Origin: a bacterium
Lineage (GTDB): Bacteria; CAIWAD01
Assembly: GCA_030429345.1 (NCBI GenBank)
Contig: JAUIFJ010000023.1
Span: forward strand, 1-62,359
Length of the DNA: 62,359 nucleotides
Direction: 5' to 3'
The notes below the pieces were generated by a model. That model was not told the DNA's origin and did no database searches. It was given only the letters and a program-made list of their open reading frames with translations. Made by a program: the position numbers and the translations under genes. This document shows, in pieces, positions 10,458 through 58,190 of the stretch (positions within the stretch are counted from its first letter, which is position 1; every line of letters starts with the position of its first letter).

Positions 10458-11201
10458 ATGTACATCCGCGCCCAGATCCACAGCTTGAAGCGGCAGCTCA
10501 GACAGCACCCCTGGCTGGGAGCCCGCCTGGCCTCGCTCTGGATCAAGGAAGGCCAGCTGGACAAGGCCGAGGCACTGCTGCGGCGCCAGCTGGAGCAGTT
10601 TCCGGCCTACCCCAGCGCGCGCATGGAGCTGGCCCACCTGCTGCTGCAGAAGGGCGATCGGCCCCAGGCTTTCCTGGAACTGCTGCGCGCCTCCGCGATG
10701 AGCGAAGGTCCGCTGGCGGCCTTTACCGAAATGCGCGATCTGGAAAGCGAGGCCCAGGGCGACAGCCAGCTGCTCAAGGACCTGCTGACGGAGGCCTGGG
10801 GCCGCGATCGCCTGAGCCGCAGCCTGCGGGAGGCCATGCGCAGCGAGGGCCTGCTGGAAGAGGAACTCTACCGCGAGCTCTTCGTGCCCACCGAACAGGA
10901 ACGACGGCAGCGCGACCGGGAGATCGACCAGTTGATCCAGCGCCTGATCGCCGAGGGCCAGGTGGCCGGCATCGCTTCCGACGGCGGGAGGCCCGAAGAG
11001 AGTCTGCCTGCACCGGAGTCCCCGGCTCCCGTCGACGAGCCCCGTCGCATCGGCAGCCGCAGCCTGGCGGCGCTCTACGAGCGCCAGGGCTACCCGGAAA
11101 AGGCCATCGAGGTCCTGCAGGGCCTGCTGGCATCCTGCGAAGGCGAGGAAGAACGCGCCGAGCTGCAGCAGTGGCTGGACCGGCTCGCAGCCGGTGAGTG
11201 A
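10458..11201 (+). CDS. TPR-repeat protein of unknown function
   Basis: 247 residues, cytoplasmic by appearance. N-terminal TPR pairs (WIKEGQLDKAEALLRRQLEQ and ARMELAHLLLQKGDRPQAF) are followed by a charged helical middle, a Pro/Glu-rich linker around 175-195, and one more TPR at the C-terminus (LAALYERQGYPEKAIEVLQG). It starts eight bases after the lptE stop with AGGAGG upstream. Its stop overlaps the start of the next gene. Confidence 0.7.
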   Translation: MYIRAQIHSLKRQLRQHPWLGARLASLWIKEGQLDKAEALLRRQLEQFPAYPSARMELAHLLLQKGDRPQAFLELLRASAMSEGPLAAFTEMRDLESEAQGDSQLLKDLLTEAWGRDRLSRSLREAMRSEGLLEEELYRELFVPTEQERRQRDREIDQLIQRLIAEGQVAGIASDGGRPEESLPAPESPAPVDEPRRIGSRSLAALYERQGYPEKAIEVLQGLLASCEGEEERAELQQWLDRLAAGE

Positions 11202-14200
11202 TGGCCTGTTGGCTCAGCCGGGTTCCAGGGCGTCTTCAGCCGCCTGTGCATGAGGCCCTTTCCGCCTTTCTGACAGTCCTGGTCCTTGGCGCGGCTTCCA
11301 GCCCCGCGGGCGCCGCCGAATGGCTGCTGCACAGCGAAGCGGATCCCGCCCCGCTGCTGGAATCCCTTCCGCGCAGCGCGCCGGCCCTGGTGCAGGCGCC
11401 CCTTTACCGTGATCACCTTTCTTCCCTTGGCTGGAGCCGGCTCGAGAGCGATGCCCCCCGCGCCGAGCTCGAGCAGCTGCTGCAGCAGCGCCTGCCCGAG
11501 GCGCGGCTGGTTCCCGTACGACAATACCGCCTGCACGACGAACCTTCGGCCGCTTCCAACTGGGGCCTGGGCTGGGTCAACGCGGCCGGGGCCTGGGCCG
11601 CCAGCACCGGGGAAGGCATCACCCTGGCCGTGATCGATACGGGCATCGAGCCCGGCCACCCGGCCCTGCGCGAAGCCTTGTGGCACAATCCCGCCGAGGA
11701 CCTGGACGGCGACGGCGTGCTCCTTCCGGATGGCGCGGGCGGCTGGATGCTGGATCCCGCGGACCTCAACGGAATCGACGAGGACGGCAACGGTTTCGTC
11801 GACGACCTGCTGGGCTGGGACTTCACCGACGCTCCGCCCTTCCCGGCGCCGGGGGACTACCTGCAGCCGGACAACGAGCCCTGGGACGAACACGGCCACG
11901 GCACCCTGGTCGCGGGCCTGGCCGCGGGACGTGATCCAGAACAGGAGCTCTGGGGCCTGGCGCCCGGCTGCCGCCTGCTGCCGCTGCGCGCGGGCAATTC
12001 GCTGGGCTGGCTGCAGGAGGACGATGTGGCCGCCGCCCTGCTCTACGCCGCCGACGCGGGAGCCCGGGTCGTCAACATGAGTTTCGGCGACAGCGAAGCC
12101 GGCGCCCTGCTCGAGGATGTGATCCGCCACCTGCACGCCCGCGGCGTGGTCCTGGTGGCCAGCAGCGGCAACACGGGAACGGAGGCTGCGCACTGGCCCT
12201 CGGGCTTTCCGGAAGTGCTCTCCGTGGGCGGAGCCCGGCTGCTGGAGAATCCCACCCGCGTGACACGCTCGCTGGGCAGTTCCTGGGGGCCGGGCCTCGA
12301 CCTGCTCGCCCCCGGACACGCCCTGCGCAGCAGCGACCTGGGCGGGGGAGAGGGCTGGATCGGCGGGACCAGCGCCGCGGCGCCCTTCGTCAGCGCGGCC
12401 TGCGCCCTGCTGCTGGCCCGCGAGCCCTCCCTCTCTCCGGAGCAGCTGCGCAGCCGCCTGCGGCGCACGGCGCGGGACATGGGCCCCGAAGGCTGGGATG
12501 CGGAACACGGAGCCGGCCTGCTCGATGCCGCGGCCGCCCTGGCCGATCCGGCGGCGCCGGGTCTTGTGATCCACCGACCGGCCTCCGGTTCCGCGTGGAC
12601 TCCGCAGGCCTTCGCCGAGAGCGGGATCCGGCTGAGCGCCTGGGGCGACCTCTTCCAGTCCTTCGAGCTGCTTTCCGGCGACTCGCCGCAGGAGGCCGAG
12701 CTGCTGCTGTCCTCGAACGAGCCCTGGTTCGACCAGGTCGTATACAACGACGAACTGCTTGCGCCCCTCGATCCGCCCGTGGACCAGCTGCAGCATCTCT
12801 GGCTGCGCCTTCGGACCCTCGACGGGGAGGAACAGCTGCGGCACAGCTCCTTCCTGCTGGACGGCACTCCTCCCGTGATCCAGGACTTGCGACTCGAGCC
12901 GATCCGCCGGGGGATGCAGGAGCTTTCGCGGCTCGAAGTCGTCTGCGACGAGCCGGTGCGACTTCGTGTGACGGGAGCAGGTGTCGTACAGGAAGGCGAC
13001 GGGCTTTCGCGCACTCATGCACAGGTCCTGGACTCCCCTGCCGGGGGAATGCTGGACATCCGGCTGCGCAATGCGGCCGGACTGGAGACGCTGCATCACC
13101 ATGCCGTGCCCCCGACCGGGGTCTTTCCCGCAGGCGCGAACATGGGGCGTGTTCCATCCGTGCTCCCCGAGGCCAGTTGGCTGGACGAGGCGCTGGACCT
13201 GGACGGGGACCAGGCCCCGGAGGTGGCTGTAGCCTTTCTAAACGATGGAGAACCGGATTCTGTTCGATTCATGGAGTACAACTGGAACGGAACCTTCAGT
13301 GCTGCCGGACTCTCCCTGCCGCCCGCCTTTCCCTTCGGTGCCGGGGATGTCACCGGCGACGAGCGAACAGAACTCCTCCTGGGCCTGGGAGATCACGCCA
13401 GGCTTTTTGCTGCCGGGGAGGAGCATCCCTGGCCCTCGCAGCTGCTGCAGGAATGGCCATCGCACTTCGCCGCCGGCCTTGTGTCCCTGTGGAACGATCA
13501 GCCCTCGCAGATCCTGCTGCAATCCGCCGAGAGGGCCTACCAGTTGTGGCTCTGGTCTTCCGAAGGTTCTGCGGCGATGCTCTGGGAGGCGGAGAATCCG
13601 GATGCAGGCCAGGCAACTCCGCAGGGAAGGCCACGCGGTATCGCGAGCGATCTGGATGCGGACGGCGAGCCCGAGCTGTGGCTCAGCCATGACGGGGGGC
13701 TTCTGTACTCGGTCGATCGATTGGGGAGAACGCGGCAGATCCTGCGCTTCCCCGGTTGGCGCGGCCCCGGAGAACACATGCAGCTCCTTCGCGAGGCCTC
13801 GGGAGTCGAATGCCTGGCAGTCCTGCTGCAGAGCCCGGCTGCGGCAAGCGAAAGCATGGCCGGAGGCGAAAGGGCGCGGCTGCTGCTCTTGTGTGACGAG
13901 AACGGAGAAGCCGTGGTCCGGGACAGCCTGGACTTTGATCTCTCGCACTCCGGCAGCGCTGTTGCCATGGGTCTTGCGGCCTTCCCGCGTCTGGACTCGG
14001 GAGAGGATCTCCTGCTAAGCCTGGCACCCTTGCTCTATGCGATCGAGTGGCATGCGGTGGAGGGCTGGGGTGTCACACGAATGGCCCTGGAAGCCCTGGG
14101 TGGCGGGGAGCCCGTGATGCTGAGCTCTTCCCCTGGTGGATTGAATTCGATACTGGCGCATGGCGTACAACAAAGCCTCGTGCTCCACACCTCGCATGGT

Positions 14201-15352
14201 GCACCCGTTCCGCCTGTCTTCCTGCCGCACAGCCGGCCCTTGGGGCAGGATCGGGTCCTGCTCGCCTGGAATGCCCCTGCCCGAACCTACTCGCTGTTGC
14301 TTCTGGGCGGTGTCGATGGCCAGCTCCTGCTCGAGAACCTGCCTCCGGAGACAGCCGGGGAGTTGGAGGTCGAAGTCACACCGGGAGAAGAATGGCAGTT
14401 CTCCTTCATGGCATTCTCTTCGGACGGCATGAACGGAGTCCGGAACGATCCGCCCTTGCTCCTGGGCGGCGAAGCTCCCTCCCTTCCCGGCGAGGTGCTG
14501 CCCACCTACTCAGGCCAGTGGACCATTCGCTGGGATCCCCCTCTCGCCCTTGAGCAACCCTATGCGCGCGCACGGATCGTGCAGGAGGGCGACAGCCTGG
14601 ACGCCACCCTGATCGTCGCCGCCGGTGGCTCGGAAACGCTGCTCAGTCTGCCGCGGTCCCGACCAGTGCCCGAAGGAGAGAGCGGCCTCCTGCTGGAAGG
14701 GCTGCGCATGCCCCGCGGTCTGCGCATGGAGCCGCTTCACCTTTCTCTTCTGGCGCTGGAGAATGGCGCCGGACCCCGCATCCTGGCAGGAAGGGCCCTG
14801 GCTCCGACGAGTGTCCGTCTCAGCTTCAGCAAGGCCATCCTGCGCGAGGACCTGGAAGAACTCACGAATTGGTCCCTGGCCGATGGGCGGGAACTCCGCG
14901 GTCTGCAGGCGGTTGAACAGAATCAGGCACTTGTGCTGCAGCTGGCGGAAGAGCGGCCGCTGCTGTCGGGGACACCGGCGCTGGAGGTCCTTGCCGGGCA
15001 GCTGCGGGCCGAGGACGGCAGCCGCAGCGAGAACCAGCGCATCGTCGTGCGGGCCGGGGTCGGCGGAATCCACGAACTGGTGGTCTATCCCAATCCCTGG
15101 CGAGCGAGCGGGAGCGGGGCCGAGGGAGCGGGCGGAGTGGTCTTCGCGGGAACGACTCCCGGCACGGAGGTGCGGATCTATTCCCTCGAAGGGAGACTGC
15201 TGCGGAAGCTGCGCGAGGAGGACGCCGACGCCTCCCTGCGCTGGGACCTGCGCCGCCAGAACGGCGAGGACCTGCCATCCGGCGTCTACCTGTTCGTGGC
15301 CGAGGACGCACAAAAGCAGCTGAAGAGGGGAAAGCTGGCCCTGGTCCGCTAG
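11201..15352 (+). CDS. Large secreted subtilase (S8) with C-terminal sorting domain
   Basis: 1383 residues from the ATG at 11201 (a GTG at 11198 is also in frame). A signal peptide ends near residue 39. The S8 catalytic triad is Asp146 (VIDTG), His233 (HGHGT) and Ser391 (GGTSAAAP), with an acidic insert between Asp and His rich in DGDG-type loops. After about residue 460 come beta-rich regions with FG-GAP/VCBS-like calcium loops (ALDLDGDQAPEVAVAF, ASDLDADGEPELWLS). The end has the FlgD-Ig/type IX-like sorting module: VYPNPWRA, then a beta sandwich ending LPSGVYLFVAEDAQKQLKRG. Extracellular or surface-bound proteolysis is expected. The start overlaps the upstream TPR gene stop. Confidence 0.93.
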   Translation: MACWLSRVPGRLQPPVHEALSAFLTVLVLGAASSPAGAAEWLLHSEADPAPLLESLPRSAPALVQAPLYRDHLSSLGWSRLESDAPRAELEQLLQQRLPEARLVPVRQYRLHDEPSAASNWGLGWVNAAGAWAASTGEGITLAVIDTGIEPGHPALREALWHNPAEDLDGDGVLLPDGAGGWMLDPADLNGIDEDGNGFVDDLLGWDFTDAPPFPAPGDYLQPDNEPWDEHGHGTLVAGLAAGRDPEQELWGLAPGCRLLPLRAGNSLGWLQEDDVAAALLYAADAGARVVNMSFGDSEAGALLEDVIRHLHARGVVLVASSGNTGTEAAHWPSGFPEVLSVGGARLLENPTRVTRSLGSSWGPGLDLLAPGHALRSSDLGGGEGWIGGTSAAAPFVSAACALLLAREPSLSPEQLRSRLRRTARDMGPEGWDAEHGAGLLDAAAALADPAAPGLVIHRPASGSAWTPQAFAESGIRLSAWGDLFQSFELLSGDSPQEAELLLSSNEPWFDQVVYNDELLAPLDPPVDQLQHLWLRLRTLDGEEQLRHSSFLLDGTPPVIQDLRLEPIRRGMQELSRLEVVCDEPVRLRVTGAGVVQEGDGLSRTHAQVLDSPAGGMLDIRLRNAAGLETLHHHAVPPTGVFPAGANMGRVPSVLPEASWLDEALDLDGDQAPEVAVAFLNDGEPDSVRFMEYNWNGTFSAAGLSLPPAFPFGAGDVTGDERTELLLGLGDHARLFAAGEEHPWPSQLLQEWPSHFAAGLVSLWNDQPSQILLQSAERAYQLWLWSSEGSAAMLWEAENPDAGQATPQGRPRGIASDLDADGEPELWLSHDGGLLYSVDRLGRTRQILRFPGWRGPGEHMQLLREASGVECLAVLLQSPAAASESMAGGERARLLLLCDENGEAVVRDSLDFDLSHSGSAVAMGLAAFPRLDSGEDLLLSLAPLLYAIEWHAVEGWGVTRMALEALGGGEPVMLSSSPGGLNSILAHGVQQSLVLHTSHGAPVPPVFLPHSRPLGQDRVLLAWNAPARTYSLLLLGGVDGQLLLENLPPETAGELEVEVTPGEEWQFSFMAFSSDGMNGVRNDPPLLLGGEAPSLPGEVLPTYSGQWTIRWDPPLALEQPYARARIVQEGDSLDATLIVAAGGSETLLSLPRSRPVPEGESGLLLEGLRMPRGLRMEPLHLSLLALENGAGPRILAGRALAPTSVRLSFSKAILREDLEELTNWSLADGRELRGLQAVEQNQALVLQLAEERPLLSGTPALEVLAGQLRAEDGSRSENQRIVVRAGVGGIHELVVYPNPWRASGSGAEGAGGVVFAGTTPGTEVRIYSLEGRLLRKLREEDADASLRWDLRRQNGEDLPSGVYLFVAEDAQKQLKRGKLALVR

Positions 15353-15413: not shown

Positions 15414-16034
15414 ATGGTATTGATCGGCCTGACAGGGGGCATCGCGGCGGGCAAGAGCCTGGCGGCTGCCTGGTTTCGCCGCCGCAAGGTGCCGGTGATC
15501 GACGCCGACCGCCTGGGGCGCGAGATTCTCGACATGGATCCGGAATTGCCGGCGCAGATCCGCCGCCGTTTCGGCGACTCCTTTTTCGACGAGGACGGAG
15601 CCCTGAAGCGCCGAGAACTGGGCCGCCGGGTGTTCGCCGACCCCTCCGAGCTGCGTGCCCTGAACGAGCTGATGTTCCCGGCCCTGGCGCGGGAACTGGA
15701 GCAGCGGATCCAGGCGCACAAGGACGAGCCGCTCTGCGTGCTGGACGCGGCGCTGATCCACGCCTGGGGCCTGGACGAGCGCTGCGACCAGGTCTGGCTC
15801 GTGCTGGCGCCCGCCGAGCTGCGCCTGCGCCGCATGATCGAGAACCGCGGATTCCCGGAGGCCGAGGCCCGCGAACGGATGGACCGCCAGCTGGATCCCG
15901 ACAGCCTGCGGGCCGATGTGTTACTGGACAACTCGGGGGACGTGGCCTCCCTGGTGGCGCAGATCGAGGCTGCCGCCGCGCCCCTCTTCAACCAGCTGGG
16001 ACTGAAGCTGGAAAAGGACCTTCTCGATGACTAG
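15414..16034 (+). CDS. coaE: Dephospho-CoA kinase
   Basis: 206 residues, normal length. It phosphorylates dephospho-CoA in the last step of CoA synthesis. The P-loop is LTGGIAAGKS at residues 5-14, followed by the CoA-binding region VIDADRLGREIL and the lid region RLRRMIENRGFPEAEARERM. GGGGAG precedes the ATG. The end overlaps the next gene by eight bases. Confidence 0.95.
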   Translation: MVLIGLTGGIAAGKSLAAAWFRRRKVPVIDADRLGREILDMDPELPAQIRRRFGDSFFDEDGALKRRELGRRVFADPSELRALNELMFPALARELEQRIQAHKDEPLCVLDAALIHAWGLDERCDQVWLVLAPAELRLRRMIENRGFPEAEARERMDRQLDPDSLRADVLLDNSGDVASLVAQIEAAAAPLFNQLGLKLEKDLLDD

Positions 16035-19000
16035 GAACACCCTCCGCCTGATCGGACTGCTGCTGCCCCTGTTGGCCCTGGCCCTGCAGGCCCAGGCCTT
16101 CGGCAAGAACAAGGTCCAGTACGAGGCCAAGGACTGGAAGTACATTCAGAGCGAGTGGTTCGATGTCTACTACTACCAGGGCGGCTACGACCAGGCGGTC
16201 TTCACCGCGGAGGTCGCCGACAGCAGCTACCGCATCCTGTCCCGCGACTGGGACTGGGAGCTGCCGCAGGGCGAACGGATCACGATCATCACCTACCAGA
16301 GCCACAACGATTTCGCCAACACCAATGTGACCAGCGGCCTGGTCGAGGAGAGCGTCGGCGGTTTCACCGAGTTCTTCAAGAACCGCGTGGTGATCCCCTT
16401 CCAGGGGAGCTGGGAGGCCTACCGCCATGTGATCCACCACGAGTTGAATCACGCCTTCTCGCTGAGCATGATCTACGGCGAGTCGATCCTGCGCGGGGCG
16501 ATCCGCTTTCCGCTGCCGCTCTGGTTCGCCGAAGGCACCAGCGAGTGGACCAGCCGCGGAGGCTGGGACCGCGAGGCCAACATGTTCATGGCCGACGCCT
16601 CGATCAGCGGCTACCTGGGCGACATTCCCCAGCTCTACGGCTTCCTGGCCTACAAGGGCGGACAGAGCGTCTTCGCCTACATCGAGCACGAGTTCGGCCG
16701 CGCCAAGGTGGCCGAGATCATGCACGCGGTGAAGAACTACCGCAACGTGGAACGGGCCTTCGAGGAGAGCCTGGGTTTCGGCGTGATGGAGCTTTCCGCC
16801 AAGTGGAAGGCCTACCTGAACCGCATCTACTGGCCGACGATCGCCGAGCGGCAGACCGCGTACGACATTGCCGACCGGATCACGGATCACATCGAGCTGC
16901 GCAACTTCGTCAACAACAGCCCGGCGATCAGCCCCAGCGGTGACCGGATGATCTGGCTCAGCGACCGCACGGGCTACTTCGACCTGTACAGCGCAAGCAT
17001 CACGGAACCGGAGAAGGCGCGCCGCATCCTGCAGGGGCAGCAGACGGGCAAGTTCGAGAGCCTGCACTGGCTGCGCCCGGGAATCACCTGGTCGCCGGAA
17101 GAGGACCGCATCGCCTTCGCCTCCAAGGCCGGGGACCAGGACGCGCTCTTCATCCTGGATCCGGTGGACGGCAAGATCCTCGACCAGTTCAAGTTCGACC
17201 TGGAAGGGCTCTTCTCGCCCTCCTGGAGCCCGGCCGGGGACCGCATCGCCTTCGTGGCCCTCGAGCAGGGACACAGCGACATCCGGGTGCTGGACCTGGC
17301 CACGCGGGAGGTGCAGCGTGTGACAGAGGACCGCTGGTCGGATTTCGATCCCGCCTTCAGTTCCGACGGCAGCCGCCTGCTCTTCATCAGCGATCGCGGG
17401 GAGGACCTTTCGACCGACCGCATCTTCGACATGAGCGGACATCCCTACCACCAGAACGATGTCTACGAGGCCGACCTGCGAAGCGGCGGCCTGCGCCGGG
17501 TGACGGAGACGCCCTACAACGAGCGCACGCCGGTCTACGGCCCGGAGGACGTGATCCACTTCATCAGCGACGCCGGCGGCGCCTACAACCTGTATACGGT
17601 GCAGGACGGCGAGCAGCCGCGCCGCCGCACGCGCATGCTGACCGGCATCTTTCAGCCCAGCATCTCGAAGTCGGGCAAGCTCCTTTTCGCCAGCTTCGAG
17701 AAGGGCGGCTACGACATCTTCCTGTTGAAGGATGTGACACGCCTTCCGGACTACGGGCCGATGCCGGAGGACGACAGCGACCTGCTGCCCTTCAACCTGC
17801 TGAACAAGGACATCGTCGCCGAGCAGCCGGAAGCTCCGGCGGAAGAGGAGCCCTCCGCATTGAGCCGCGACAGCGCCTGGAAGAACTTCGACTTCAGCAA
17901 CCTGGACGGCTATTTCGAGGGCCGCGAGGAGCGCGCCGCCGAGGCCACTGTGACACGCGGCGAACTGAAGAAGACGCGCTTCGACGACGAGGGCAACTAT
18001 GTGCCCAGGGACTACAGCATCCGCTTCAGTCCCGACCTGGCGGAGGCCGACGCCTACTACGACAATCTCTACGGCTTCCAGGGCGCGGGCGAGATCGTCT
18101 TCAGCGACCTGCTGGGCAACCACCGGATGAACCTCTTCCTGAACGTATACGACCGCATCGAGCTGAGCAATTTCCACTTCTACTACACCTACAGCGAGCA
18201 GCGCACGGACTGGTCGTCGGGATTGTTCCGTTATGTGCGTTACCTGAACTCGGAAGTGCGCGACCGCTACTACCAGGACAACCAGTACGGCGCCTTCGGC
18301 CAGGCCAGTTATCCTTTCAACCAGTTCATGCGCTTCAGCCAGAGCGGCACCTGGACGACCATCGAGCGCGACAGCCTCAACGCCAACGACATCGACCCCT
18401 ACAGCTACAAGCCGGAGAAGTACCGCAACTACCAGAAGGGGGACTTCCTGACGACGACCAGCTCGCTGATCTTCGACAACACGCTCTGGGGCAGCACGGG
18501 GCCCAACAACGGCTTCCGCGGCGCGATCTCGTATACGCGCAGCTGGCCGGTGGACGACAACATCCACGTGGGCAACGATTTCCACAGCATGGGGCTGGAC
18601 CTGCGCAAGTACTACCGGCTGAGCCCGGATCTTTCCTTCGCCACCCGGCTGACCACGGGAGCGAGCTACGGCGGGGATCGCCAGGTCTTCTTCCTGGGCG
18701 GCGCTCCGGGCTGGATCAACTCCAAGTACTACAAGTCCTCGAGTGACACGACCTACAATACGCTGCGCAGCGACTTCAACGAGTTGTACTACTCGAGCTT
18801 CATCCAGCCCCTGCGCGGGGCGGCGATCTACCAGGGGGAGGGCGACCGCTACGCCCTGGCCAACCTGGAATTCCGCTTTCCGATCATCCGCTACCTGGTG
18901 ACGGGCTGGCCCTTCAACATGGCGCTCTTCAACCTGCGCGGCACCCTCTTCACCGACATCGGCACGGCCTGGTACCAGGACAGGGGCTATGATCGTGATG

Positions 19001-19140
19001 ACCTGATGATCGGCTACGGCTGGGGCACGAGGCTCAACGTCGGCTTCGCGCTGCTCAAGTTCGACTGGGCCTGGTCGAAGATGGGCGACGGGGAACGGCG
19101 GGGGCCGCAGTTCTACCTGACCCTGGGGGCGGATTTTTAG
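16027..19140 (+). CDS. Surface metallopeptidase-propeller-outer-membrane barrel protein
   Basis: 1037 residues in three parts. After a signal peptide (to about residue 22) comes a gluzincin-type domain with HELNH (His138, Glu139, His142) and a downstream glutamate, Glu169, in WFAEGTSEW, the expected third zinc ligand. Residues about 290-600 are TolB/PD40 propeller blades (ISPSGDRMIWLSDRTGYFDL, WSPAGDRIAFVALEQGHSDI, FSSDGSRLLFISDRG). The last 350 residues are alternating aromatic beta strands of a BamA/surface-antigen-like barrel ending in Phe (LTLGADF). I infer an outer-membrane protein carrying its own peptidase and propeller. A paralogue with the same order lies at 58191-61013. Confidence 0.85.
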   Translation: MTRNTLRLIGLLLPLLALALQAQAFGKNKVQYEAKDWKYIQSEWFDVYYYQGGYDQAVFTAEVADSSYRILSRDWDWELPQGERITIITYQSHNDFANTNVTSGLVEESVGGFTEFFKNRVVIPFQGSWEAYRHVIHHELNHAFSLSMIYGESILRGAIRFPLPLWFAEGTSEWTSRGGWDREANMFMADASISGYLGDIPQLYGFLAYKGGQSVFAYIEHEFGRAKVAEIMHAVKNYRNVERAFEESLGFGVMELSAKWKAYLNRIYWPTIAERQTAYDIADRITDHIELRNFVNNSPAISPSGDRMIWLSDRTGYFDLYSASITEPEKARRILQGQQTGKFESLHWLRPGITWSPEEDRIAFASKAGDQDALFILDPVDGKILDQFKFDLEGLFSPSWSPAGDRIAFVALEQGHSDIRVLDLATREVQRVTEDRWSDFDPAFSSDGSRLLFISDRGEDLSTDRIFDMSGHPYHQNDVYEADLRSGGLRRVTETPYNERTPVYGPEDVIHFISDAGGAYNLYTVQDGEQPRRRTRMLTGIFQPSISKSGKLLFASFEKGGYDIFLLKDVTRLPDYGPMPEDDSDLLPFNLLNKDIVAEQPEAPAEEEPSALSRDSAWKNFDFSNLDGYFEGREERAAEATVTRGELKKTRFDDEGNYVPRDYSIRFSPDLAEADAYYDNLYGFQGAGEIVFSDLLGNHRMNLFLNVYDRIELSNFHFYYTYSEQRTDWSSGLFRYVRYLNSEVRDRYYQDNQYGAFGQASYPFNQFMRFSQSGTWTTIERDSLNANDIDPYSYKPEKYRNYQKGDFLTTTSSLIFDNTLWGSTGPNNGFRGAISYTRSWPVDDNIHVGNDFHSMGLDLRKYYRLSPDLSFATRLTTGASYGGDRQVFFLGGAPGWINSKYYKSSSDTTYNTLRSDFNELYYSSFIQPLRGAAIYQGEGDRYALANLEFRFPIIRYLVTGWPFNMALFNLRGTLFTDIGTAWYQDRGYDRDDLMIGYGWGTRLNVGFALLKFDWAWSKMGDGERRGPQFYLTLGADF

Positions 19141-19284: not shown

Positions 19285-19304
19285 TTACGAAGGGGCGGGA
19301 AAAC

Positions 19305-19484
19305 GGTGCCAAGGACGGTGCCAAGGACGGTGCCACGCACGGTGCCAGGGACGGTGCCAGGCACGGTGCCAGGGACGGTGCCAAGGACGGTGCCAGGCAC
19401 GGTGCCAAGGACGGTGCCAGGCACAGTGCCAGGGACGGTGCCAATGGCGGTGCCAAGGACAGTGCCTCGCACGGTGCCAGGCTT
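19305..19484. repeat. 12-bp tandem array 1 (GGTGCCARGSAC), 15 copies
   Basis: Units begin every 12 bases from 19305 to 19473, with the consensus GGTGCCAAGGAC or GGTGCCAGGCAC and a few variants (AGTGCC at 19425 and 19461). The GTGCCAGGCAC form is itself an inverted repeat. The array ends one base before the stop codon of the minus-strand desuccinylase-like gene. ORFs across it read as Pro-Gly-Thr-Val repeats and are not genes. There are no CRISPR-like spacers. Confidence 0.92.
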
Positions 19485-19485
19485 C

Positions 19486-20514
19486 TTAATCCAACTCTTC
19501 CATAAGATCAATCGCCCTTTTCACGCGGCCCAGGTTTCGGAAGCCGGCGATGTGGACGATGGCGTCGCCGCGGTTGACCGGGGGGATGGTGGCGTGGCCG
19601 ATGATGATGCCGTCCTCGGGGCATTCGACGAGCTTCTCCTGGCCGCCGAAGGCGTCTGTGATGCGGGCCAGAGGCTCGCCCTTGGTCACACGGTCGCCAG
19701 CAGCCTTCAGTAGCTTGAAGAGGCCGCTGTGGGGTGCGCGGACCCAGAAGCTCTCGCGTGAGACGAAGGCTTCCGGCGGCGCCTTGGTCCTGGCGGAACG
19801 GAGCTGCGGCAGCATGCCGATGTGACGCATCACCGCCAGGCAGCCGGCCAGGCCGGCGCGGATCACGCCCTCGTCCAGGCGCAGGGCCTCGCCGCCTTCG
19901 AAGAGCAGACTGCGTATGCCCTTCTTGCGGGCTGCCTCGCGCAGCGATCCGTCGCGCAGGCGGGAGTGGATCACAACGGGCACGCCGAAGACCTTGGCCA
20001 GTTCCTCCGTTTCCGGATCATCGAGGCTGGCGCGCACCTGGGGCAGGTTGGTGCGATGCACGGCCCCCGTGTGCAGGTCGATGCCGTGGCTGCAGCGCTG
20101 GACGATCTCCTTCATGAAGAGCCGGGCCAGGCGTGATCCAAGGGAGCCTCCCGGCGAGCCGGGGAAGCAGCGGTTCAGGTCCCGCCGGTCAGGCAGGTAG
20201 CGCGACTTGTCGTTGAAGCCGAAAATGTTGACCACCGGCACGGCGATCAGGGTGCCGCGCAGGCGCGACAGGGCGGGACGGGCCAGCAGGCGCTGGATGA
20301 TCTCGACGCCGTTCAGTTCGTCGCCGTGGATCGCCGCGCTGACGAAGAGTGCCGGACCTTCCCGGCGGGAATGGATCACCTCTACGGGCAGGTACAAAGG
20401 CGTGTAGTCGTAGAGCGAGGCTACTTCCAGCTGCAGACGCCGGCGCTCGCCGGCCTCGATCCGCTGCTTCCCGATGCGGAAGGCGGCCCGCATGGGTTTT
20501 GTACTACGAGCCAC
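19486..20514 (-). CDS. Succinylglutamate desuccinylase/aspartoacylase-family protein
   Basis: 342 residues on the minus strand. The zinc-carboxypeptidase-like fold shows the ligands HGDE (in [12 protein letters not shown]) and a later His in GIDLHTG, with an Arg/Asn substrate pair in DLNRCFPG. Family members hydrolyse N-acyl bonds of glutamate or aspartate. The C-terminal 80 residues form a beta-rich extension ([20 protein letters not shown]) resembling a lipoyl-like barrel. Its start overlaps the end of the RimK-like gene by 11 bases, so the two are co-translated. A joint role in adding and trimming glutamate-type modifications is plausible but unproven. Confidence 0.85.
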
Positions 20515-21739
20515 TGGCCGTTCCCTCCGCCGGCCCCTCGTGTCTCGCCGCCTCGATGGACGCTGCGCTGAGCTTCTTGATCTTCGGCTTGAGGCGGCGA
20601 CGGGCTTTTTCCGGAATCAGCTCGCGCATCGATTCCAGGCGGCCGAAGCAGAGCAGGCGGTCGTGGGCGGCCAGCACGCGGTCCGATCTTGGGTTGGGCA
20701 CCACCTTGTTCTCGTGATGCAGGGTCAGCACGTTGATGTCCAGCTCGCGCAGCCCCGACTCCTTCAGGGTCTTGCCGATGTACTCGGAGCCCTCGGGCAC
20801 GTGGATCTCGGTGACGCCGTAGCCGCGGCTCACCGTGAGACGCTGGCGCAGGTCGATGGCCGGGTAGTCCACATTGGCCGCGATGTAGTCGATGATCGCG
20901 CCGGCGACATCCTTGCGCGTGCAGGTCTCGATGCCTTCCAGCCCCGGCGAGCTGTTGACTTCCATGATCTGCGGGCCATCCTTGCCTTCCAGCATGTCGA
21001 CACCGGCAACTCCCAGGCCGAGGATCTTCGCCGCGCGCACGGCCACTTCGCGGTAGTCGTCGCGCAGTTCCACTTCCTCAGTACGCCCGCCGCGGTGGAC
21101 ATTGCTGCGGAACTCCTGCCCTTGTGCCACACGGCGCATGGCGGCCACCACCTGGTCGCCGATCACGATGGCGCGCACGTCCCGCCCCTTGCTCTCGGCG
21201 ACGAACTTTTGGATCAGCACGTTCTGCTTCTGGCTCTGCAGCAGCTCGATCATCGAGGTCGCGAGCTCGAGGCGGTCGGCGAGCAGTACGCCGATGCCCT
21301 GTGTGCCTTCGAGCAGCTTGATCACCACGGGCACTCCGCCAACACGCTCGATGGCGGGTAATACATCCTTCTTGTTGCGCACGAAGGCCGTCGCCGGAAT
21401 GCCGATGTTGTGTCGGCTGAGGATCTGCAGGGAGCGCAGCTTGTCGCGTGAATTGAGAATGCCCACCGCCGAATTTGGGGAAAAGACCTCCATCTGCTGG
21501 AACTGGCGTACCACAGCGGTGCCGAAATAGGTGATCGAGGCCCCGATGCGCGGCAGTACCGCGTCGTAGTGCGAAAGCCGTTTCTGTCTGTAATACAAAT
21601 CCGGTTCGTCGGTTTCCAGGTCGATGGCGAAGGAGAGGGTGTTGAGCACACGCACCGTGTGATCCCTTTTGCGGGCGGCCTCGACGAGGCGGCGCGTGCT
21701 GTAGGTTCCGGGTTCGCGGGAAAGAATGGCGAGTTTCAT
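20504..21739 (-). CDS. RimK-type ATP-grasp ligase fused to an RCK_C (TrkA-C) domain
   Basis: 411 residues. The N-terminal 300 residues match RimK, which adds glutamate to the C-terminus of a protein such as ribosomal protein S6 or makes poly-glutamate. Visible features are the start MKLAILSREPGTYSTRRLVE, the ATP-grasp region VVIKLLEGTQGIGVLL, and the metal site GVDMLEGKDGPQIMEVNSSP. Residues about 310-385 form an RCK_C domain (VPEGSEYIGKTLKESGLREL, then RVLAAHDRLLCFG), a ligand-binding module of potassium-channel regulators. The tail is basic (ARRRLKPKIKK). It is transcribed away from the 22044 gene and is coupled to the desuccinylase-like gene downstream. Confidence 0.88.
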   Translation of the reverse strand: MKLAILSREPGTYSTRRLVEAARKRDHTVRVLNTLSFAIDLETDEPDLYYRQKRLSHYDAVLPRIGASITYFGTAVVRQFQQMEVFSPNSAVGILNSRDKLRSLQILSRHNIGIPATAFVRNKKDVLPAIERVGGVPVVIKLLEGTQGIGVLLADRLELATSMIELLQSQKQNVLIQKFVAESKGRDVRAIVIGDQVVAAMRRVAQGQEFRSNVHRGGRTEEVELRDDYREVAVRAAKILGLGVAGVDMLEGKDGPQIMEVNSSPGLEGIETCTRKDVAGAIIDYIAANVDYPAIDLRQRLTVSRGYGVTEIHVPEGSEYIGKTLKESGLRELDINVLTLHHENKVVPNPRSDRVLAAHDRLLCFGRLESMRELIPEKARRRLKPKIKKLSAASIEAARHEGPAEGTASGS

Positions 21740-28399: not shown

Positions 28400-28906
28400 A
28401 TGAAACGCTACACCCTGGGCGAAGAGGGCAAGACACGCGAACTGGCCTTCCGCGGCCGCGGCTGGGAAGGCGTCCTGTCTCACGAAAAAGGCGAGAGCCC
28501 CGTCGAGGGCCGTCGTCTTGGTGGCGAACTGTCACTCAAATTGGGGGACCGCATGCACCGGGTCGAACCGGTCGGCGAGGGTCTCTACCGTGTAGACGGG
28601 CAGCTGGTCTCGATCCGGCTGCGCAGCGATCTCGAGGCCCGCTTCGAGGCCCTGGGCCTGGGCGGCCGCGCCGAGGTCGGCGGCAAGGTCGAACTGCCCA
28701 TGCCGGGCAAGGTGATCTCCGTGCTGGTCGAGGAGGGGCAGCAGGTCGCCGAAGGGGAAGGCCTGCTGATCGTCGAGGCCATGAAGATGGAGAACGAGAT
28801 CAAGGCGCCCCGCGCCGGCGTGGTCCGTCGCCTGGCCGTCAAGGCCGGCGATGAACTGGAAAAAGGCGCGCCCCTGCTCGACATCGAGGCGGAAGAGACC
28901 TCGTGA
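28400..28906 (+). CDS. Biotin carboxyl carrier protein
   Basis: 168 residues. The C-terminal 75 residues form a biotinyl domain with EAMKMENE; Lys129 is the biotinylated residue, flanked by the PMPGKV strand. The N-terminal 90 residues resemble the linker region of propionyl-CoA carboxylase alpha subunits. The ATG directly follows the biotin carboxylase stop codon (TAGATG), and the end overlaps the UbiA-family gene (GTGA). Confidence 0.92.
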   Translation: MKRYTLGEEGKTRELAFRGRGWEGVLSHEKGESPVEGRRLGGELSLKLGDRMHRVEPVGEGLYRVDGQLVSIRLRSDLEARFEALGLGGRAEVGGKVELPMPGKVISVLVEEGQQVAEGEGLLIVEAMKMENEIKAPRAGVVRRLAVKAGDELEKGAPLLDIEAEETS

Positions 28907-29808
28907 TCCTCGCCGATCTCTTCTTCCTCAGCCGGCCGACCCTGTTCTTCGTCAACTGGATCATCCTGCTGCTGGGACATCACGCGGTCGGCGGAGCCGG
29001 AGGCCCGGCGCTCTGGCTGCTGATGGTCGAGTACGCCTGCATCTCGGGAGCCGCCGTGATCGTCAACCAGCTCCACGACCTGGAAAGCGATCGCGAGAAC
29101 GGCAAGCTCTTCATCCTGCAGAAGGGCTATGTCAGCGAGAGCGCCGCCCTGTGCCTGGCCTGGAGCCTCTTCGCCCTCGGCGCCCTTTTGGCCATCGGCC
29201 TGGGCACGCTGAATTTCCTGCTGACCCTGCTCTTTTTCGCCCTGACCGGGATCGTATACAACAAGCCGCCGCTGGCCACCAAGGATCGGCCGCTTGCCGG
29301 CATGCTGACCCTGGCCCTGGCCTGCGCCGCGCTTTTCGTGCAGTCGGCGGCGCTGGGCGGAGTCGGTCCCCTGCTGCGCGCGCTGCCCGAGTCCCTGCCG
29401 ATCCTGCTGGCCTGCCTGGGAGTCGGCCTGCTGACGACCATTCCGGACATGGAGGGCGATGCCGCGGCGGAGAAGCTGACCTTTGCCCGCCGCTACGGCG
29501 TCGACCGCACCTACCTGGCCGCGCTGGCCAGCCTGCTGCTCTGCCTGCTTTGCAGCTGGATGCTGGCCAATCCCTTCGTCGGCCTGCCGGCCCTGGGCGC
29601 CGTCGTCCTGCTGCTCTGGGGCGTCTTCACCCGCCCGCGGGAGCGCGCCGCGGCGATCAGCCGCTGGGCGATCCTGCTGCAGGCTTTGGCCGTCTGCTCC
29701 CTGGCGCCCTTCTTCGGGCTGCTGATGATCGTGTACTACGCCGCCGCGCGGTTCTACTACCGGGAACGCTTCGGGATCGTCTATCCCCGGCTGGGCCTGG
29801 ACAGCTGA
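28903..29808 (+). CDS. UbiA-family prenyltransferase
   Basis: 301 residues with about eight hydrophobic segments. The two Asp-rich sites of the family are visible: NQLHDLESD near residue 47 and the second DMEGD near residue 185. The first differs from the strict NDxxD form. These integral membrane enzymes attach polyprenyl chains to aromatic acceptors for quinone, chlorophyll, haem or archaeal lipid synthesis. The acceptor cannot be told. The GTG start overlaps the biotin carrier stop, which is odd company for a prenyltransferase. Confidence 0.85.
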   Translation: MILADLFFLSRPTLFFVNWIILLLGHHAVGGAGGPALWLLMVEYACISGAAVIVNQLHDLESDRENGKLFILQKGYVSESAALCLAWSLFALGALLAIGLGTLNFLLTLLFFALTGIVYNKPPLATKDRPLAGMLTLALACAALFVQSAALGGVGPLLRALPESLPILLACLGVGLLTTIPDMEGDAAAEKLTFARRYGVDRTYLAALASLLLCLLCSWMLANPFVGLPALGAVVLLLWGVFTRPRERAAAISRWAILLQALAVCSLAPFFGLLMIVYYAAARFYYRERFGIVYPRLGLDS

Positions 29809-29822
29809 AAGGAATGGGGCGC

Positions 29823-31223
29823 ATGGCCCTTCGCTTCTACAACAGCATGGGACGGAAGAAAGAGGACTTCCGCCCGATCGTTCCCGGCGAGGTCCGCCTG
29901 TATACCTGCGGGCCGACCGTCTACAACTACGCCCACATCGGCAACTTCCGCACCTTCCTTTTCGAGGACATGCTGCGGCGCGTGCTGGCCTACTGCGGCT
30001 ACCGCGTGATCCAGGTGATGAACTTCACCGACGTGGACGACAAGACGATCCGCGACAGCCAGGCCGCCGGCGAGCCCCTCGAAGAGTTCACCGAGCGCTA
30101 CAAGCAGGCCTTTCTCGAGGACGTGGACACCCTGCGCATGCAGCGCGCCGAGCACTACCCGGCAGCGACGGATCACATTCACGAGATGGTCGAGATGGTC
30201 AAGGCCCTGCGCGACAAGGGCCACACCTACGAGCACGAGGGATCGATCTACTTCCGCCTGTCGTCCTACGGGGACTACGGCCGGCTGACCAACATCGAGC
30301 CCGCCGAGATGCGGCCCGGCGACCGGGTGGACTCGGACGAGTACGGCAAGGACGACGCCCGCGACTTCGCGCTCTGGAAGGCCTGGTGCGAGGAGGACGG
30401 CGATGTCTTCTGGGAGACCGACCTGGGCCGCGGCCGCCCGGGCTGGCACCTGGAATGCTCGGCGATGAGCGTCAAGTACCTGGGCGAGCATTTCGACATC
30501 CATACCGGCGGCGTCGACAACCGCTTCCCGCATCACGAGAACGAGATCGCCCAGTCCTGCTGCGCGACCGGCGAGGACTTCGCCAACTACTGGCTGCACT
30601 CCGAGTTCCTGCTGGTCGAGAACAGCAAGATGTCCAAGAGCAAGGGCAACTTCTACACCGTGCGCGAGCTGGTGGACGAGGGCTGGGAGCCGGCCGTGAT
30701 CCGTTTCTGCATCCAGCGCGTGCACTACCGGGCGCAGATGAACCTGAGCCGCGAAGCCCTCGAGCAGAGCGTCGTCAGCGTGAGACGCCTGCGCGAATTC
30801 TCCCGCCGGCTGGAGGGCGGCCTGAAGGGAGAGGGCCGCGGGGCGGAGGTGGCGGGGCTGATCGACAAGGCCCGCTCCGAGTTCCGCGCCTGCATCGAGG
30901 ACGACATGAACACCAGCGGCGCCCTGGGGCACCTGTTCATCCTGGTCCGCGAAGCCAACGGCCTGGCCGACGCCGGCAAACTGGATGCGAAGGACGGCGA
31001 GAACCTGCTGGCCTTCATGAAGGAATGTGACACGCTCTTCGAGGTGCTGCGCGAGGACCGCGACGAGAGCGCGGAAGGGAAGGTTGCCGCCCTGGTCGCC
31101 GAGCGCACCCAGGCCAAGGCCGAGAAGAACTGGGCCCGTGCCGACGAGATCCGCGAGGAGATCGCCGCCCTGGGCTACACGGTCAAGGACACCCCCGACG
31201 GCCCGGTGTTCTCCAAATCGTAA
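29823..31223 (+). CDS. cysS: Cysteinyl-tRNA synthetase
   Basis: 466 residues, close to the usual 460. It charges tRNA-Cys. The class I motifs are HIGN (in TCGPTVYNYAHIGN, whose Cys is a zinc ligand) and KMSKS, with zinc ligands also in HLECSAM and HHENE. The C-terminal region has the DALR-like helical fold. The ATG at 29823 is chosen because AAAGGA lies nine bases upstream; an in-frame ATG at 29814 is only two bases from that site. Confidence 0.97.
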   Translation: MALRFYNSMGRKKEDFRPIVPGEVRLYTCGPTVYNYAHIGNFRTFLFEDMLRRVLAYCGYRVIQVMNFTDVDDKTIRDSQAAGEPLEEFTERYKQAFLEDVDTLRMQRAEHYPAATDHIHEMVEMVKALRDKGHTYEHEGSIYFRLSSYGDYGRLTNIEPAEMRPGDRVDSDEYGKDDARDFALWKAWCEEDGDVFWETDLGRGRPGWHLECSAMSVKYLGEHFDIHTGGVDNRFPHHENEIAQSCCATGEDFANYWLHSEFLLVENSKMSKSKGNFYTVRELVDEGWEPAVIRFCIQRVHYRAQMNLSREALEQSVVSVRRLREFSRRLEGGLKGEGRGAEVAGLIDKARSEFRACIEDDMNTSGALGHLFILVREANGLADAGKLDAKDGENLLAFMKECDTLFEVLREDRDESAEGKVAALVAERTQAKAEKNWARADEIREEIAALGYTVKDTPDGPVFSKS

Positions 31224-55043: not shown

Positions 55044-55982
55044 GTGGACTCCGTGACACAGCGTCCCTTCCTGCCGGCCCTCAGCGGCCCCACCGGCTGC
55101 GGCAAGAGCGAGCTCGCCCTGCGGCTGGCCGAGCGCCTGGGGCGGGAGGTGATCAGCGCCGACAGCCGCCAGATCTACCGCGGTCTCGCCGTGGCCACCG
55201 CCGCTCCCGACGCTGGAATGCTCACGCGCGTGATACATCACCTGGTCGGCAGCCATGAGCCCTCCGACACGGTCAGCGCGGGCGACTTCTGTCGCACGGT
55301 CCGTTCCCTGCTCGCTGAAGGACGTCCATGCCTGATGGCCGGAGGCAGCCTGTTCTACATCCAGGCCTGGCGTTCCCCTGTCGACGAGAGCGTCGGCGTG
55401 GACGAAGAGCTTCGCCTGCGCGTGCGCGCGCTCTTCGAGGAGCAGGGCGCCGAAGCCTTTCGCGAAACATTGTTGCAACACGATCCGGAAGCGGCCTGGA
55501 TCGACCGCCGTGACTCGGCCAAGCTGCGGCGCTACATGGAGATCAGCATGGGCACGGGGCGGCCGGCCAGCGAGGCCCTGCGCGAGCTGCGCCGCGACTG
55601 CCCGGCGCGCACGCCGCTCTTCGTGATCCAGCCCGAGCTGGCGGAACTGACGCCGCGGCTCAAGCGGCGACTGAAGCAGATGCTGTCCGGCGGCATGATC
55701 GAAGAGGTGGAAGCCCTGCTGAACGCGGGCGTCGATCCGGCCGGTCATGCCCTCTCCAGCGTCGGCGCGCCGGAGATCGCGCTCCACCTGCGCGGGGAGA
55801 TCACGCGCGAGAGCCTGGAGGAGAAGATCTACCGTCGTACCCGGCAGTACGCGAAGAAGCAGCTGACCTGGATCCGCAAGCTCGTGCGACAAGGCGAGGC
55901 CGAGGCGCTGCCGAAGGGTCCTCTCGAAGGACAGGAGGCCTGGCTGCTGCAGCGTTTCGAGCAAGAGGGAGGCCGGGCGTGA
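55044..55982 (+). CDS. miaA: tRNA dimethylallyltransferase
   Basis: 312 residues from the GTG at 55044. LSGPTGCGKSELALRLAERL is the P-loop, VISADSRQIYRGLAVATAAP the DSRQ signature, and CLMAGGSLFYIQAW the next block. It prenylates A37 of tRNAs reading UNN codons. Two active-site regions are conserved, so it should be functional. Usually near mutL, as here. The end overlaps the subtilase start (GTGA). Confidence 0.95.
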   Translation: MDSVTQRPFLPALSGPTGCGKSELALRLAERLGREVISADSRQIYRGLAVATAAPDAGMLTRVIHHLVGSHEPSDTVSAGDFCRTVRSLLAEGRPCLMAGGSLFYIQAWRSPVDESVGVDEELRLRVRALFEEQGAEAFRETLLQHDPEAAWIDRRDSAKLRRYMEISMGTGRPASEALRELRRDCPARTPLFVIQPELAELTPRLKRRLKQMLSGGMIEEVEALLNAGVDPAGHALSSVGAPEIALHLRGEITRESLEEKIYRRTRQYAKKQLTWIRKLVRQGEAEALPKGPLEGQEAWLLQRFEQEGGRA

Positions 55983-58183
55983 GACAAGTTCTCCTGATCC
56001 TCTCGGCACTACTCGCGCTTCGCCCCGGGCAGGCCCTCGAGATGAGTGCCGCCGCCCGGCTGCAGGCGCTGGAGCCGGAACTCGCCTCCCGGCCGCAACG
56101 CTGGTTCCTCAGCGGTGAAGAAGAGGGATTGCGGCAGGCGGAACAATGGGCCGGTGAGCGCCTGAGAAGGAAAGGCCGCACCGCCCTCTCGCTGCTGCTG
56201 GATCACGAGGACCTCCAGGCCCTTCGCGCACGCCCTTTCGCGCAGGGCCTTCTGCTGGAGCCGGTGCAGCGCATGCGGCCGGCGCTGGATCTCGCGCGGG
56301 AGGCCATCGGCGCGGACCAGGTGCTGGCGCCCTGGGGCGGAGGCCCGGGCCTGGACGGCGAGGGCGCGCTCATCGGCATTGTCGACACGGGCATCGACTT
56401 CACGCATCCCGATTTCCGCGGCGCGGACGACGAGCTGCGCATTCTCTCCTATTGGGACCAGGTCGAGCAGCAGGTATACAGCCGAGAGACCTTGCTGGGC
56501 GGATCGATTCCCAACCGGGACGCGGAAGGACACGGCACCCATGTCGCCGGCATTGCCGGCGGCGGCGGGCAGGCCTCCGAGGGCCGCTTCCGCGGCCTGG
56601 CGCCGGAAGCCGAGCTGCTGATCGTGCGCACCACCTTCTACGAGGACGATGTCTTCGCCGCCGTCGACTGGATCTTCGACCAGGCCGCGTTGGCAGGCCG
56701 CCCCTGCGTGGTCAACCTGAGCCTGGAGAGTCCACTGGGGCCGCATGACGGAAGCAGCAGCTTCGAGCGCGAACTGAGCGCCCTGACGGGGCCGGGCCGG
56801 GCGCTGGTGGTGGCCGCAGGCAACACGGCCAACTCGGGACGCCACTACTCGGCCTCCGGCTTCAGACAGGACGAGCTGCAGTTCACCCCGCAGTCCCCCG
56901 ACGAGGCGATTGTCGAAGTCTACGCCGAGAGCATCGTCGCCGCCTCCTTCGAGCTGCTTGCCCCCGACGGGACCGCCTTCGAGCCGGCCAACCAGAGCCG
57001 CAGCTGGAGCGGCGCCACGGTCATTTTCCCACCGCCGGTCGTCCGCAACGGCAAGCGCACCCTGCAGCTGCGCATCGACAACGGCATGGGGGACTGGCGG
57101 TTGCGCATGAGCCTGCCCGCCGGCCAGACGGGCTCCTGGCACGCCTGGGGCTACCAGCTGGTCTTCGCCGATCCGGATCCGTATACGACCGTCAGCGTGC
57201 CGGCCACGGCCGACAGCGCGCTGAGCGCCGGCTCCTGGATCTCGCGCTGGAGCTGGGAGAGCCGCGCCGGCTCCCGGCAGTACGCCGGCGAGGACCGCAG
57301 CGGCGAGCCCAGCGCTTTCAGCGCCCGGGGCCCGCGTGTCGACGGGCGGCAGATCCCGCACCTGCTGCTGCCCGGCCAGGGCATCTTCTCGCCGATGAGT
57401 TCGCTCATCGTGGGCGACACCCGGGAACGGGAGTTTCCCGGCGCGCCCTACTACCTGCTGCAGGGAACCAGCATGTCCGCGCCGGCGCTGGCCGGGGTGG
57501 TGGCGCTCGCTCTCTCGCTGCGTCCCGAGATGGGGCCAGCGGCGCTGGAGGCCTGGCTGAGACAGGGCGGCGAGGAGTGGACTCCGGAAAGCGGGCATGG
57601 CCTGCCCGACCTGCCCGCGCTCTTCCTGCAGCTGCAGGGACCCGTGGCCGAACTGCGGGCACGGGCGGACCTCGACCGGGTGGAGCTGAGCTGGGAGCTG
57701 GCCACTGCCCTGCCCGGCGGCAGCCAGTCCCTGTATCGCGAACGGGCAGCGGGAGAGGATCCGCTGGGCACCTGGGAGACCGAAGAGCCGGCATTCTTCG
57801 TCTACAGTGATTCGCTGATCTCGTCCGGAGAGCAGTTGCGCTACCGCCTGGACCTGTTCGACGCGCAGCAGGAACTGGCGGGCCGCGTCTACAGCGCGCA
57901 GACCGGCCTGCTGAGCGCGGGGCCATCGCTGCTGCTGGGCGCACCCCGGCCCAATCCGGCAAGGAGTCTTGTCTATTGTGAACTCCTGCCCGGCGAGGCG
58001 GGGCGCCTTCGCTGGTCCCTGTATACGCTCCTCGGCCAGCGCCTGGACGGGGGCGAGACCGTGTTGCAGGCCGGCCGCCAGACCCTGCGGCTGGATCTGT
58101 CCGGAGCCGCCTCCGGCCGCTGTTTCCTGGAACTGGACTTCGCGGGGCGCCGCGAAGTGCATCCGATCACCGTGATCCGCTAG
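55979..58183 (+). CDS. Secreted subtilase (S8) with inserted beta domain and sorting domain
   Basis: 734 residues with a signal peptide (LILSALLALRPGQALE). The triad is Asp136 (VDTGID), His185 (HGTHVAG) and Ser498 (GTSMSAP). The 310-residue span from His to Ser includes an inserted beta-sandwich of about 150 residues (FELLAPDGTAFEPA to LQLRIDNGMGDWRLR). The C-terminal 80 residues (APRPNPARSLVYCEL, then a beta sandwich) are the FlgD-Ig/type IX-like sorting domain. The GTG overlaps the miaA stop. Confidence 0.93.
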   Translation: MRQVLLILSALLALRPGQALEMSAAARLQALEPELASRPQRWFLSGEEEGLRQAEQWAGERLRRKGRTALSLLLDHEDLQALRARPFAQGLLLEPVQRMRPALDLAREAIGADQVLAPWGGGPGLDGEGALIGIVDTGIDFTHPDFRGADDELRILSYWDQVEQQVYSRETLLGGSIPNRDAEGHGTHVAGIAGGGGQASEGRFRGLAPEAELLIVRTTFYEDDVFAAVDWIFDQAALAGRPCVVNLSLESPLGPHDGSSSFERELSALTGPGRALVVAAGNTANSGRHYSASGFRQDELQFTPQSPDEAIVEVYAESIVAASFELLAPDGTAFEPANQSRSWSGATVIFPPPVVRNGKRTLQLRIDNGMGDWRLRMSLPAGQTGSWHAWGYQLVFADPDPYTTVSVPATADSALSAGSWISRWSWESRAGSRQYAGEDRSGEPSAFSARGPRVDGRQIPHLLLPGQGIFSPMSSLIVGDTREREFPGAPYYLLQGTSMSAPALAGVVALALSLRPEMGPAALEAWLRQGGEEWTPESGHGLPDLPALFLQLQGPVAELRARADLDRVELSWELATALPGGSQSLYRERAAGEDPLGTWETEEPAFFVYSDSLISSGEQLRYRLDLFDAQQELAGRVYSAQTGLLSAGPSLLLGAPRPNPARSLVYCELLPGEAGRLRWSLYTLLGQRLDGGETVLQAGRQTLRLDLSGAASGRCFLELDFAGRREVHPITVIR

Positions 58184-58190
58184 GAGTCCC

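Follow-up and report, generated by a model that had tools for sequence, protein, structure and literature searches.

How a single bacterial protein could combine a zinc peptidase, a TolB-like propeller and an outer-membrane barrel, and on which side of the membrane the peptidase would work, are the questions raised by a gene in the window, the whole stretch of 62,359 nucleotides analysed here. We found that the open reading frame was present as described in the ORF list (16027-19140, plus strand, ATG start, 1037 aa), with an 8-base overlap, at its start codon, with the end of the dephospho-CoA kinase gene upstream. Pfam matches and reading of the sequence gave the order, from N- to C-terminus, of signal peptide, Peptidase_MA-type domain, PD40/TolB propeller and Omp85 barrel. 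Together with the relatives described below, these results bore out the proposal of the initial annotation that a peptidase, a PD40 propeller and a barrel are joined in one chain of 1037 residues. A chance HExxH, or a gene that is a prediction artefact, might be feared where the motif is short and the window is rich in long overlapping frames. We give this explanation practically no weight, because relatives aligned end to end at 28–58% identity to the window protein (17 sequences), nearly all with a single intact frame, and the catalytic residues were invariant in 50/50 homologues.

Domains of the chain and the predicted zinc site

The chain begins with a predicted Sec signal peptide (residues 1–24; 16027..16098, on the plus strand like the other features of this gene) that ends LALALQAQA. 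Sequence reading revealed a basic start, a hydrophobic core and A-Q-A before F25, and no lipobox cysteine in the signal peptide. Directly after the presumed cleavage site lies a conserved mature N-terminus, FGKNKVQY (residues 25–32; 16099..16122), in which the alignment showed F25, G26, N28 and K29 to be kept in 47–48 of 50 sequences. The form FGxNKVQY was near-invariant across the family.

The gluzincin pattern consists of HExxH and a downstream EG glutamate. Within the Peptidase_MA-type (gluzincin-like) domain (residues about 25–275; 16099..16851) we found the zinc motif HELNH at residues 138–142 (16438..16452) and Glu169 in WFAEG (16531..16533), the presumed third zinc ligand. H138, E139, H142, E169 and G170 were invariant in all 50 aligned sequences and likewise across the 17-sequence alignment, indicating that the zinc site is not a chance occurrence. 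Peptidase_MA_2 (PF13485) matched residues 121–264 of the window protein at E=2e-4, its 21.6 bits lying below the cut-off of 32.4, and matched 43/43 N-terminal domains of the family at E≤0.01 (best E=6e-17); PF01752 (M9 collagenase) was matched by 13 of these 43 domains and PF04450 (BSP) by 11. A profile of the domain matched solved M9 collagenases weakly (E=0.002), with E169 aligned to their WWsEG glutamate. Judged by these matches, we claim homology of the predicted peptidase to Peptidase_MA_2, the window copy itself falling short of formal Pfam membership. Its likeness to Peptidase_MA_2, BSP and M9 collagenase proteins lies in HExxH and the downstream EG glutamate, the similarity to collagenases being weak, and to our knowledge such proteins are mostly not barrel-anchored.

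The invariant catalytic residues, together with the presence of PF13485 in every one of the 43 members, indicate that the catalytic motif is under strong selection. The assignment of HELNH and Glu169 as zinc ligands in the initial annotation therefore stands at the sequence level, and the concern that most homologues might lack a third ligand was allayed by the presence of Glu169 throughout the alignment. By homology we infer zinc geometry in the predicted site, and with it catalytic activity of the putative peptidase. That the window copy scores under the Pfam threshold could speak for a catalytically dead fold that serves in binding only, but this is very unlikely with every catalytic residue invariant in 50/50 sequences. 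AlphaFold2, run on the peptidase domain alone with 3 input sequences, gave a low-confidence model (mean pLDDT 39).

The PD40/TolB-like propeller follows (residues about 280–576; 16864..17754). It matched PD40 at E=8e-18, above the Pfam cut-off, and TolB in the PDB at E=1.5e-13; when the single chain was searched against the PDB, essentially TolB alone was matched. The similarity to TolB was partial, with 109 bits against the NCBIfam equivalog score of 343. An acidic linker that varied in the alignments (residues about 577–658; 17755..18000) and had no domain match in the Pfam scan connects the propeller to the Omp85 barrel (residues about 659–1037; 18001..19137), which ends YLTLGADF. PF01103 (Omp85) matched residues 722–1037 above its cut-off (E=5e-8). 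A barrel profile of 42 sequences matched the solved POTRA-Omp85 protein 9ccg over positions 20–382, nearly the whole domain, at E=7e-14, and its matches to BamA and TamA structures were more local.

The Omp85 signatures comprise (V/I)RG(Y/F) on loop L6 and (F/G)xDxG on strand 13, with an Arg-Asp salt bridge between them, strand 13 reading FxDxG in BamA and TamA and GxDxG in FhaC (PMC4490367). Motif comparison placed both in the window protein, as LRGA (R930; residues 929–932, 18811..18822), an L6 variant with L in place of V/I and A in place of Y/F, and as FTDIG (D977; residues 975–979, 18949..18963), in the form found in BamA and TamA. Both members of the lid-lock pair, R930 and D977, were present in 41/42 sequences. 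By its predicted C-terminal barrel domain and these signature motifs the protein is assigned to the Omp85 superfamily, very probably as a member whose gluzincin-type site is intact. Barrels of the Omp85 superfamily have 16 transmembrane strands and are closed. A simple amphipathicity scan of the barrel yielded 23 candidate segments, which is not a strand count, and AlphaFold2 on the full chain (3 input sequences; mean pLDDT 35) was confident in propeller parts only; by homology to the solved barrel we infer that the barrel closes.

Spread of the family and its place among Omp85 classes

When 386 genomes were searched with the family profile, 232 gave at least one hit at E≤1e-20; reading-frame length marked many of the hits as TolB or other propeller proteins. 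At least 67 of the 386 genomes contained a single uninterrupted match that began in the peptidase and reached the final portion of the barrel, and several genomes carried two copies. A more distant protein of similar order (L024) had HEMTH, PD40 above the cut-off and Omp85 slightly under it. A scan of viral contigs found no further family sequences there. The pairwise distances of peptidase and barrel were correlated (Mantel r=0.82, p=0.001), suggesting that the two evolve as one unit, with a mean pairwise identity of 41% for the peptidase domain versus 32% for the barrel. As far as sequence comparison reaches, the combination of peptidase, propeller and Omp85 barrel is real, conserved and widespread in bacteria.

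The peptidase–propeller pair can also exist alone, as revealed by a Salinibacter ruber plasmid protein (L035:3905-5806), annotated as basic secretory protein-like, that has both domains without the barrel. A split barrel beside this protein was rejected, the next gene being serine carboxypeptidase-like. A candidate split gene in L102 (640 + 375 aa) was likewise rejected as a frameshift, since its ORFs overlap by 118 bases and the domain order continues.

In the main text of their 2014 survey, Heinz and Lithgow describe ten Omp85/TpsB subfamilies and recognise non-POTRA subfamilies in the Omp85 superfamily; one of the ten, WD40-Omp85, has, like the window protein, a TolB-like propeller N-terminal to the Omp85 barrel and no POTRA (PMC4104836). 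By this described domain architecture the family fits the WD40-Omp85 class. The main text names the propeller alone for this class and does not mention a peptidase, whereas the window protein has a predicted intact gluzincin-type domain ahead of the propeller (PMC4104836). A 2024 paper still regards the WD40-like and metalloprotease Omp85 classes as not well characterised (PMC11116518). The domain order cannot be taken as unique, since 67 or more of the 386 genomes contain it and it fits a class of 2014 as that main text describes it (PMC4104836). What holds of the initial annotation on this point is that no characterised enzyme with such an order was known to it: our literature searches, which covered open-licence papers, found no characterised protein of peptidase–propeller–Omp85 order.

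Metallophos (PF00149) is a phosphoesterase family. The 'Metallo' class of Omp85 proteins in the main text of the same survey resembles the window protein in having a metal-enzyme domain N-terminal to the Omp85 barrel (PMC4104836), but differs in that this domain is Metallophos and not a protease, and the class is therefore no evidence of a protease–Omp85 fusion.

Location and possible role of the peptidase

PlpD resembles the window protein in that a single chain joins an N-terminal enzyme domain to an Omp85 barrel, and differs in that the enzyme is patatin-like and lipolytic, with one POTRA and without a propeller or zinc site (PMC11116518). Its enzyme domain, formerly thought to be surface-exposed, was shown to be periplasmic (PMC11116518). 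This precedent and the Omp85 barrel suggest that the peptidase of the window protein is probably located in the periplasm. Alternatively, the barrel could translocate peptidase and propeller to the cell exterior for the digestion of external protein, a route earlier proposed for PlpD, the archetype of type Vd. Such surface display would accord with an N-terminal passenger and a C-terminal barrel, a long and variable linker and the collagenase-like environment of the motif. We consider it unlikely, however, because the enzyme domain of PlpD proved periplasmic (PMC11116518), strand 13 has the FxDxG of BamA and TamA and not the GxDxG of the FhaC translocase, and a folded propeller would seem poorly suited to the barrel lumen. 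The claim of the initial annotation that a protease is presented on the membrane is thus retained in the sense of anchoring and found no support in the sense of surface display, the nearest studied case, PlpD, having been reassigned to the periplasm (PMC11116518).

Eight Omp85 matches were found in the genome, one of them an 890-aa ORF with POTRA repeats in its upstream part, which is a candidate BamA by sequence. The C-terminal residue was F in the window chain and in 30/42 sequences overall, and a last strand with an aromatic end is typical of BAM substrates. With such a strand, and with a separate POTRA-bearing BamA candidate in the genome, the suggestion that the protein might insert itself found no support. 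A separate 455-aa TolB-like ORF, under the TolB cut-off as well, was also present, and given both ORFs the family protein appears not to replace BamA or TolB.

Based on these results, we propose that the usual periplasmic POTRA repeats would be replaced in this protein by a TolB-like propeller bearing an HExxH + Glu zinc metallopeptidase. The chain would be exported by Sec and its barrel then inserted, probably by the cell's own BAM, while peptidase and propeller would stay on the periplasmic side, tethered via the linker of ~80 residues. The putative peptidase would most likely cleave envelope proteins that are misfolded or immature, or precursors crossing the outer membrane, and the propeller may act as substrate selector. 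BepA, an M48 zinc peptidase, acts in quality control at the BAM complex and is similar in being a periplasmic zinc peptidase at an outer-membrane assembly site (PMC8423444). It differs in being unfused to a barrel or propeller and in its other architecture, and both BepA and PlpD serve here as analogies. The BepA precedent and the lack of conserved partners point to a possible role in quality control or maturation. The whole reading, in which a zinc peptidase anchored in the outer membrane faces the periplasm and serves the quality control or maturation of envelope proteins, is put forward tentatively, as one that we place just short of probable.

The protein could instead be an assembly factor, in which the Omp85 barrel would insert or export clients, the propeller would take the part of BamB or TolB in fused form, and trimming or clearance of clients would fall to the peptidase. 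The Omp85 lid-lock motifs are retained, the characterised Omp85 proteins except PlpD work in assembly or translocation (PMC11116518), and a BamA–BamB-like fusion was suggested in the main text of Heinz and Lithgow (PMC4104836). Nevertheless, this alternative is doubtful: Pfam detected no POTRA in the window protein at E up to 1, a BamA candidate with POTRA repeats is encoded in the genome alongside other Omp85 proteins, and the invariant zinc site argues for an enzyme more than a mere adaptor.

The WD40-Omp85 class as a whole might consist of widespread outer-membrane-anchored zinc proteases that would form a built-in machinery for degradation or maturation, separate from BAM, TAM and PlpD, with envelope clients selected and held for cleavage by the propeller and barrel; this we regard as conceivable, somewhat below the point at which we would call it probable. 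Omp85 proteins are known for protein insertion and export, and among those that bear an enzyme PlpD alone has been studied. Were a conserved protease joined to such a barrel across many bacterial families, Omp85 proteins would gain a proteolytic member, and an enzyme would have gone unnoticed in the WD40-Omp85 class. The family offers a direct test of outer-membrane policing in some diderm bacteria.

Gene neighbourhood

No neighbour gene was conserved across the 43 family loci, which fits a self-sufficient envelope function. In the two closest relatives with named records (L031 and L032), CoaE, the family gene and a PreP-like M16C peptidase gene were adjacent in that order. In the window some 4 kb separate the family gene from the PreP-like one further downstream, the interval containing AstE/AspA-like and RimK-like genes on the minus strand (19486-21739), and no signal peptide was evident in the PreP-like protein. 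The CoaE and PreP-like M16C neighbours are probably cytosolic. In the closest relatives they are lineage-specific, and the context gives no functional clue.

Several other features of the window were recorded. Directly 3′ of the gene, positions 19303-19479 form an array in which the 12-base unit ACGGTGCCAAGG recurs about 15 times, with 83% matches. Upstream of CoaE, 11198-15352 encodes a 1384-aa subtilase whose C-terminal tail has a weak match of FlgD-Ig / T9SS type. At 28851-31223 lies a cysteinyl-tRNA synthetase ORF in which ~340 residues before the catalytic domain had no Pfam match. The region 55979-61013 carries another S8 subtilase, of 734 aa, and after it a 940-aa ORF that lacked Pfam hits and matched the TolB propeller weakly.
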